64,000 nucleotides of DNA from Paracoccaceae bacterium (GTDB taxonomy: Bacteria; Pseudomonadota; Alphaproteobacteria; Rhodobacterales; Rhodobacteraceae). The notes under the pieces were generated by a model that saw only the letters and a program-made list of their open reading frames with translations, was not told where the DNA came from and did no database searches. This document shows, one piece after another, positions 49,259 through 50,850 of this stretch. A program made the translations under genes and the position numbers. Position 1 is the stretch's first letter; each line of letters starts with the position of its first letter. The stretch covers positions 1 through 64,000 of the forward strand of contig JAAELR010000071.1 of assembly GCA_024226455.1 (NCBI GenBank), written 5' to 3'.

Positions 49259-49780
49259 ATGACGCTGAGAAACATCATCATTCACCCCGATCCACGGTTG
49301 AAAAAGCACTGCGCGCAAGTGCCAGAGATCTCTGCCGGGTTGCGCAAGCTGGCCGACGACATGCTGCAGACCATGTATGACGCGCCGGGCATCGGGCTGG
49401 CGGCGCCGCAGGTGGGCGAACTGATCCGGCTGATCGTGATGGATGCGGTCAAGGAAGAGGGCGCCGCGGCGCGGCCGATGGCGCTGTTCAACCCCGAGGT
49501 CACCTGGGTCTCGGAGGAAATGAACACCTACGAAGAGGGCTGCCTGTCCATCCCCGAGCAGTTCGCCGAGGTCGAGCGCCCCGCCGAGGTGCGGGTGCGC
49601 TGGACGAATGTCGACGGCAAACAACAGCAAGAGCAATTCGGCGGGCTGTGGGCCACCTGCGTGCAGCACGAGATCGACCATTTGGATGGCAAGCTATTCA
49701 TCGACTATCTCAAGCCTCTGCGCCGCCAGATGATCACCCGCAGGATGGTCAAGCTGAAACGGGAACGGGCCCGGGCTTGA
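49259..49780 (+). CDS. def: Peptide deformylase, canonical copy
   Basis: 173 residues. All three motifs are intact: GIGLAAPQ (44-51), EGCLS (93-97, metal Cys95) and HEIDH (137-141, two metal His and catalytic Glu). Removes the formyl group from N-formyl-Met. The stop overlaps the TTG start of a second copy (TTGA at 49777-49780). It heads three tandem coupled paralogues. Confidence 0.95.
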   Translation: MTLRNIIIHPDPRLKKHCAQVPEISAGLRKLADDMLQTMYDAPGIGLAAPQVGELIRLIVMDAVKEEGAAARPMALFNPEVTWVSEEMNTYEEGCLSIPEQFAEVERPAEVRVRWTNVDGKQQQEQFGGLWATCVQHEIDHLDGKLFIDYLKPLRRQMITRRMVKLKRERARA

Positions 49781-50238
49781 GCGTGCTGCCGATCTTGCAG
49801 CATCCGCATGCGACCCTGCGCAAGACCTGCGAACGGGTAGACCGGTTTGATTCGGAAATCCGGGATTTGGCCGCGCATATGCTGGAGACAATGTATGCCG
49901 CCAAGGGCCGGGGACTGGCCGCGCCGCAGGTGGATGTGCCGATCCGGCTTTTTGTCATGGATGCCGGGTGGAAAGACGGAGAGCGCACGCCGCTGATCTG
50001 TGCAAACCCGTCTGTCGTCGCGCTGGGCGCCGAGGTTCGGACCTGCGAGGAACAATGCCTGTCCATCCCCGACCATCCCGTTGGCGTGACGCGCCCGGCC
50101 CGGGTTGTGATGCGCTGGCACGATCTGCATGCCAGGGCACATGAAGCCGAACTGAGCGGAGCCGCCGCGGTGATTGCCCGGCATGAGGCCGATCATCTTG
50201 AGGGCCGGCAGATCCTTGACTTCATCGGTGAACCATGA
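49777..50238 (+). CDS. Peptide deformylase paralogue 2
   Basis: 153 residues from TTG 49777 (GTG at 49783 possible). Motif I GRGLAAPQ (44-51) and motif III HEADH (136-140) are intact; motif II reads EQCLS rather than EGCLS, keeping the metal Cys. Probably active but with altered pocket, as in other type-3-like deformylases where the Gly is replaced. The stop overlaps the third copy (ATGA at 50235-50238). Confidence 0.85.
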   Translation: MSVLPILQHPHATLRKTCERVDRFDSEIRDLAAHMLETMYAAKGRGLAAPQVDVPIRLFVMDAGWKDGERTPLICANPSVVALGAEVRTCEEQCLSIPDHPVGVTRPARVVMRWHDLHARAHEAELSGAAAVIARHEADHLEGRQILDFIGEP

Positions 50239-50729
50239 CCGTCCGCCCCTGCATTGCGTGGCCCGACAAGCGGTTACGCAGCCCGGCGGAACCCATCGAG
50301 ACGATCACAGACAAGATCCGCGCCATCTGGGACGACATGATCGACACCATGGAGGCGATGCCCGGCGTCGGGCTTGCCGCGCCGCAGATCGGGGTGATGC
50401 TGCGGCTGGCTGTGGTGGACGCCTCGGACCAACGCGGCAAGGCGGTGCGCATGGCCAATCCCGAACTGATCGACATGTCCGACGAGCTGCGCGCGCATGA
50501 GGAAGCCAGCCCCAACCTGCCCGGCACCTCGGCCCGGCTGGAACGCCCCGCCAGAGTGATGGTGCGCTATCTCAATCCGCAAGGCATGATCGACAGACGT
50601 GAATTCGAGGGGCTCTGGGCGACAAGCGTGCAACACCAGATCGACCATCTGAACGGGCGCATGTTCTTCGACAATCTCAGCCGTACCAAACGCGCCATGC
50701 TGCTGAAGAAGGCCGCCAAGCGGCGCTAG
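50235..50729 (+). CDS. Peptide deformylase-like paralogue 3, metal site lost
   Basis: 164 residues. Motif I GVGLAAPQ is perfect, but motif II has become EEASPNLPG, without the metal Cys, and motif III reads HQIDH, with the catalytic Glu replaced by Gln. The fold should persist; deformylase activity should not. The frame is intact and well preserved, which suggests a retained non-enzymatic role (binding the ribosome or nascent chain) rather than decay. Coupled to copy 2 by ATGA. Confidence 0.85.
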   Translation: MTVRPCIAWPDKRLRSPAEPIETITDKIRAIWDDMIDTMEAMPGVGLAAPQIGVMLRLAVVDASDQRGKAVRMANPELIDMSDELRAHEEASPNLPGTSARLERPARVMVRYLNPQGMIDRREFEGLWATSVQHQIDHLNGRMFFDNLSRTKRAMLLKKAAKRR

Positions 50730-50850
50730 GACAGGCCCGCTCGCCCCCGGGGCCGCGAGATCTTGACGCCGCCTGCGGTTTTCGTTGGCGTTCGGGCGGG
50801 TCTGTTGGCAGGGTTTGCCCGAGATCGGGGGACCGGGAGGAGAGATCAAA

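Follow-up and report, generated by a model that had tools for sequence, protein, structure and literature searches.

Three overlapping genes for homologues of peptide deformylase (PDF) lie in the window analysed here (the whole 64,000-nucleotide stretch of DNA), and in the product of the third gene, def3, residues of the deformylase active site have been replaced (Table 1). The question raised by this locus is whether Def3 is a copy in decay, an enzyme of altered chemistry, or a protein maintained for something other than deformylation. An earlier note on this DNA had described three coupled def paralogues, of which the last, intact and joined to the second by ATGA, reads GVGLAAPQ, EEASPNLPG and HQIDH at its motifs. 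This description held throughout: each neighbouring pair of genes overlaps by 4 bp, with TTGA at the junction of the def1 stop and the def2 start, the altered motifs lie in an intact ORF, and all three products match PF01327, at 173.9 bits (def1), 151.1 bits (def2) and 137.6 bits (def3) against a curated Pfam cut-off of 22.8. By that cut-off Def3 is a PDF homologue. The TTG start of def2 is a putative one; the ORF listing has a longer GTG ORF from 49648. Def3 also scores 134 bits with TIGR00079 (‘peptide deformylase’; cut-off 103.95), so genes of its type are likely to be named as active enzymes. No PDF beyond the three was found in the genome (3 matches in an assembly of 487 contigs, 98% complete). 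The gene fmt is absent after def3 in the window (50730–50850); the fmt of this genome is on contig C404, and the def-fmt cluster seems to be split in the source genome.

Table 1. Features of the def cluster and of def3 in the window
Feature	Position	Strand	Description
def1	49259..49780	+	canonical active-site PDF (GIGLAAPQ, EEGCLSIP, QHEIDH) with a basic C-terminal helix
def2	49777..50238	+	PDF paralogue (GRGLAAPQ, EEQCLSIP, RHEADH) without the basic C-terminal helix; fast-evolving
def3	50235..50729	+	164-aa ORF; putative PDF-fold pseudoenzyme (GVGLAAPQ, EEASPNLPG, VQHQIDHLNG)
ATGA, overlap of def3 start and def2 stop	50235..50238	+	putative coupling of translation
Motif I, GVGLAAPQ, residues 44–51	50364..50387	+	kept in Def3
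Motif II, EASPNLPG, residues 90–97	50502..50525	+	altered: Cys to Ser 92, Leu to Pro 93, Ser to Asn 94
Motif III, QHQIDHLNG, residues 133–141	50631..50657	+	altered: Glu to Gln 135; His134 and His138 kept
Basic C-terminal helix	50682..50726	+	candidate for ribosome docking: K152, R153, K159, K162; AlphaFold helix 150–163

The general base of PDF is a Glu and one of its metal ligands is a Cys, and E. coli PDF needs both residues. Across 119 aligned Def3 proteins the Cys position is occupied by Ser in 118 and by Pro in one, and never by Cys, while the position of the catalytic Glu is Gln in all 119. The canonical Leu of motif II is Pro without exception (119/119), the canonical Ser of the same motif is Asn in 115 proteins and Cys in four, and a Cys located three residues ahead of HxxxH is replaced by Ser in 117 of the 119. 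Invariant in the same alignment are both His of the metal-ligand pair (HxxxH), Glu90 and the motif-I Gln (119/119 each). Held against active PDFs, Def3 agrees at the motif-I Gln and departs at the Cys of motif II and the Glu of motif III. The earlier note had spoken of a lost metal site, which is correct for the Cys ligand, and the catalytic Glu is gone as well, but two of the three metal ligands, the His pair, are invariant. It had also proposed that orthologues of the third copy be aligned for consistent loss of the Cys and the Glu, and had named orthologues with a retained active site as evidence to the contrary; the loss was found to be consistent, and none of the 119 aligned orthologues retains the active site. 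Because Ser, Pro and Gln are fixed at these positions and an additional Cys has given way to Ser ahead of HxxxH, the picture suggested by the alignment is of an active-site pocket that has been re-set, not decayed. Deformylation by the canonical chemistry has probably been lost in Def3, although with its His pair and motif-I Gln kept the protein could still bind a metal and carry out some residual or new chemistry.

The two paralogues encoded upstream are built differently. All 118 Def1 orthologues have the Cys, the Glu and both His, and 117 have the motif-I Gln, the exception being a row truncated at that point. Def2 orthologues have the Cys in 54/54 and the Glu in 53/54, with an Arg in motif I (GRGLAAPQ type) in 53 of the 54. 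Columns conserved at ≥95% number 45 in Def3 versus 68 in Def1 (of 164), and W9, W32, M42, A59 and A74 are among the residues conserved in Def3 only. The PDF sequence of locus L129 is canonical.

Relatives of Def3 were confirmed at 248 places in a scan of GTDB genomes, and the best 80 of 248 by similarity to Def3 were used. In this first set (the best 80 of 248 and the window) motif II opens with EASP in 81/81, as EASPNLP in 79 and EASPCLP in two, and motif III has HQ in 81/81; the 119-protein alignment is a larger set that includes this one. Sequencing error was ruled out as the cause of the altered motifs, the same change being present in independent genomes, and chance was ruled out by the EASP and HQ counts together with the Ser and Gln counts of the 119-protein alignment. 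When the family was sampled at one genome per genus, PF01327 was matched in 287 of 295 genomes and the DNA pattern EASP...HQxDH in 218 of the 295. We then took 40 family loci, 20 of them from genomes without a match to the EASP pattern (two chosen because they had one PDF) and 20 hand-picked among the matched genomes, a sample that is not random. Def3 was present in 38 of the 40, including 18 of the 20 from pattern-missed genomes, where it reads EGSP in 16, EAPP in one and EASP with a degenerate motif III in one. The two loci without Def3 are those chosen for their single PDF. Allowing Gly as well as Ala in the pattern (E[AG]SP) brought matches in 146 of the 149 genomes drawn from the order, all 149 of which fall within one family, and in 70 of the 73 genera sampled; the remaining 3/149 genomes gave no match to the Def3-site pattern. 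The widened pattern matched 147 places, the second place in G693 being an apparent chance match. These DNA patterns write Ser as WSN, which lets codons for Cys, Thr, Arg and Trp through as well, and the Ser count for Def3 is that of the 119 aligned proteins, not of the patterns. Judged by sequence, the Rhodobacteraceae-type family has in Def3 a clade-wide pseudo-deformylase.

A number of individual loci stood apart. L106 and L107 have def1 and no def3 within the fetched 5 kb. L100 (genome G604, on the (−) strand) has a Def3 that looks degenerate, with SVGLAAPQ, EASPNLQG and QHQANH. L077, titled Nocardioides marinus, has a def cluster of the Rhodobacteraceae type and is perhaps mislabelled or a mixed assembly. 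Of 385 genomes sampled across the class, 14 matched the single-motif pattern QHQ[IVM]DHL, four of them in Def3’s own family (5 sampled) and 10 outside it. A spread of Def3 outside the family was considered and rejected on the loci from four of these 10 genomes: L084–L087 are without any ORF that matches a PDF profile, and the control, L003, has one. In five more of the 10 (G033, G056, G162, G260 and G351) the pattern lies away from the PDF places among the matches listed.

Selection on the three genes was compared through median pairwise dN/dS (NG86; 150 pairs each for def1 and def3 and 27 pairs for def2, with dS filtered to 0.1–1.5 for def3, to 1.8 for def1 and to 2.5 for def2), which came to 0.145 for Def1, 0.176 for Def3 and 0.44 for Def2. 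Def3 is under purifying selection. Its new Ser is encoded by AGY in 108 rows and by TCN in 10, and at least 10 switches between AGY and TCN with Ser kept were counted on a FastTree phylogeny. Since AGY and TCN codons are not one step apart, yet Ser was kept, this points to selection on the serine itself. The loss of catalytic residues in Def3 is fixed and the rest of the protein is under purifying selection, a combination looked for in a selected pseudoenzyme. We place the probability that Def3 is without canonical activity and under selection at about 90%, and the conserved pseudoenzyme that the earlier note had proposed finds its sequence support in the family-wide fixed substitutions and in this purifying selection.

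The AlphaFold model of Def3 (pLDDT 96.0, pTM 0.91) has the PDF fold and aligns with E. coli PDF (1bsj) at a TM of 0.93 and an rmsd of 1.3 Å with 37% identity, so the fold, which had been claimed to be kept, is predicted to be that of a normal PDF. The folds closest to it are those of bacterial PDFs whose C-terminus is helical, its best PDB sequence match is 5j46, and the model has the C-terminal helix of type 1 PDFs, at residues 150–163. Def3 therefore resembles type 1 PDF (PF01327; E. coli Def, 1bsj) in fold, motif I, metal His pair and helical basic C-terminus, and differs from it in having Ser for the Cys ligand, Pro-Asn for Leu-Ser, Gln for Glu and Ser for the Cys ahead of HxxxH. The median net charge of the tail after motif III is +8 in Def1, +7 in Def3 and −1 in Def2. 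The positions of K152, R153, K159 and K162 in Def3 are basic in Def1 too. In Def2, 42 of 54 sequences have R153, while the basic residues at 152, 159 and 162 are mostly gone.

Passages of PMC8712518 place the ribosome contact of the C-terminal helix of E. coli PDF at L22, on a site that overlaps the one of Met aminopeptidase, and put the affinity of PDF for the ribosome in the range of 2 µM. Passages of PMC5591237 describe the E. coli helix as crucial in vivo and report in vivo activity for a phage PDF that has no ribosome-binding region; not every PDF, then, depends on the helix. That a basic helix is present in Def1 and Def3 and absent in Def2 lends indirect support to a possible role at the ribosome exit. 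By such a mechanism, Def3 would be made in step with Def1 through coupled translation and would dock through its C-terminal helix near the exit tunnel, at the site that E. coli PDF uses at L22 and that overlaps the one of Met aminopeptidase. There it would either hold the formyl-Met N-terminus uncleaved or limit the access of Def1 and Met aminopeptidase, and the outcome would be that Def3 times or selects N-terminal processing. We advance this ribosome-exit mechanism tentatively, at somewhat less than even odds. Its narrower form, in which Def3 is a reader of formyl-Met, that is, a non-cleaving binder at the ribosome exit that delays or selects deformylation and Met removal, is rather unlikely to be correct as it stands. 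Against the ribosome-exit mechanism in general, the basic helix may serve another contact, R153 of the helix pattern is kept even in Def2, and helix positions 150, 157, 160 and 164 of Def3 differ from those of Def1. The activity of the phage PDF, the lower number of highly conserved columns in Def3 than in Def1 and the genomes that lack Def3 also count against it.

Gene order bears both on this mechanism and on a rival to it. In 117 of 118 loci the gene immediately ahead of def3 encodes another PDF. Of the 80 named loci, L042 breaks off at a contig end just short of def3; in the other 79, which have a PDF gene upstream, the overlap with that gene is exactly 4 bp in 65 and def3 begins ATGA in 68. 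All 38 family loci that carry def3 have the upstream PDF gene in the same orientation, −11 to 65 bases away as reckoned from profile starts. A downstream fmt in the same orientation accompanies the cluster in 79 of 80 named loci, and fmt was found in 40 of 40 family loci. The translation of Def3 is thus probably coupled to that of the upstream PDF gene, and the suggestion that it is co-translated with a deformylase is well served by the overlaps and the shared strand. The second copy is not favoured as its specific partner, as the earlier note would have had it: def2 was found in 35/80 named loci and 18/40 family loci, and in the 45/80 named clusters where it was not found (one of them, L042, cut by the contig end) Def1 and Def3 stay. 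An upstream PDF gene that is adjacent and coupled by 4 bp is also what would be seen if Def3 were a regulatory subunit that forms a heteromer with Def1, the usual cluster partner, and stabilises or tunes it, a role taken by certain other pseudoenzymes, and W9, W32, M42, A59 and A74 could make the interface. The same five residues could, however, be core and not surface, and E. coli-type PDFs are usually monomeric; we consider a regulatory subunit unlikely.

Def3 may instead still be a catalyst. It could be a deformylase of weak or conditional activity that perhaps uses a different metal, or a new Ser-Pro-Asn/His-Gln enzyme with another substrate. The invariance of the metal His pair, Glu90 and the motif-I Gln goes beyond the need of a pure scaffold, and the new motif is itself invariant and not drifting. 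Passages of PMC12690207 and PMC5591237 describe these as PDFs with substituted catalytic motifs that are weakly active or inactive, and the conserved motifs of Def3 are substituted in this sense. In the relevant passages of PMC12690207, inactive accessory type 3 PDFs in S. aureus and S. pneumoniae are discussed, while type 3 PDFs of T. brucei are cited as active, PDFs without the exact motifs are argued to be possibly still active, and conditional activity is proposed for type 3 PDFs. Set against all of these, the general base is Gln in every aligned Def3 and the Cys ligand is Ser in all but one, and a catalytic Def3 seems to us improbable. By published description, as given in those passages, type 3 or accessory PDFs are like Def3 in their substituted motifs and in standing, in some species, beside an active PDF, and Def3 is unlike them in extending through a whole family, in its overlapping cluster with def1, in its one defined set of substitutions and in having its fold matches among bacterial PDFs of the helical C-terminal kind.

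The kept frame of the pocket would also suit a decoy, in which Def3 binds natural PDF inhibitors and spares Def1. Hydroxamate inhibitors chelate the PDF metal, but the Def3 site is without the Cys ligand. Moreover, Def3 is present in 70 of the 73 sampled genera, a distribution that does not resemble that of a resistance gene, and a decoy function is very improbable even with natural PDF inhibitors being held, in a passage of PMC12690207, to be more widespread than thought. A reading of Def3 as a duplicate in decay that travels with the operon, as the degenerate-looking copy of L100 and the genomes without def3 might suggest, is rejected by the selection and fixation data, namely a dN/dS of 0.18, near-invariant substitutions in 119 proteins, a Ser kept across codon-family switches and retention across the family-wide sample.

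The clustering of def genes in these bacteria has been reported before. According to a passage of PMC12690207 (2025), the reference species of Rhodobacterales show clustered PDFs in 98.1% of cases and three genes in 62.5%; the rationale of this clustering is called elusive. The published cluster is very probably the same gene cluster as the one described here. All four mentions of Rhodobacterales in the main text of PMC12690207 fall in that one passage, which counts copies and states no catalytic substitution, and in PMC3024229, on gene duplications in R. sphaeroides, the word ‘deformylase’ occurs in two passages, one on B. subtilis and the other a reference. A full-text literature search found no paper that describes a def copy of Rhodobacterales as catalytically dead. 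The def cluster was already known; within the reach of the literature search, what appears to be new is that it includes a pseudoenzyme fixed clade-wide. A fixed and selected pseudoenzyme with a ribosome-type helix makes the unexplained clustering of def genes a testable question. If it is true that Def3 binds formyl-Met or the exit site, these bacteria have an extra regulator of N-terminal processing; to our knowledge, E. coli is without such a regulator.

The origin of Def3 was addressed with a mixture-model tree from which the motif columns had been removed. In this tree Def3 forms one clade (100/100), nearest to Def1 of its own family with weak support (51/69). Other substituted PDF homologues were seen in other alphaproteobacterial families (L168 and L179–L184), with GIGITAPH, EGS[VLI]SMPG and HE[IV]DQ at the motifs; in this GIT type the motif-I Gln, the Cys and the second His are replaced and the Glu is kept. 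The GIT genes in G040 and G033 lie apart from other PDF genes among the matches listed. The GIT type is like Def3 in its Cys to Ser change, its PDF homology and its basic tail, and unlike it in keeping the Glu, in losing the second His (DQ for DH) and in losing the motif-I Gln (GIGITAPH). The common Cys to Ser change would fit an origin of Def3 and the GIT type as one ancient pseudo-PDF lineage, in place of a duplication of def1 within the family, and a joint clade was not rejected by the AU test (p 0.248). However, the best tree has Def3 beside Def1 and the GIT type among other alphaproteobacterial PDFs, and a homologue that keeps the Glu and loses the second His is the reverse of Def3, leaving the single ancient lineage a doubtful proposition. 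A third kind of substituted homologue is found at L159:109-621, which has GIGIGANM, EEASLSYPG and QHEMDY at the motifs and a basic tail like that of Def3.
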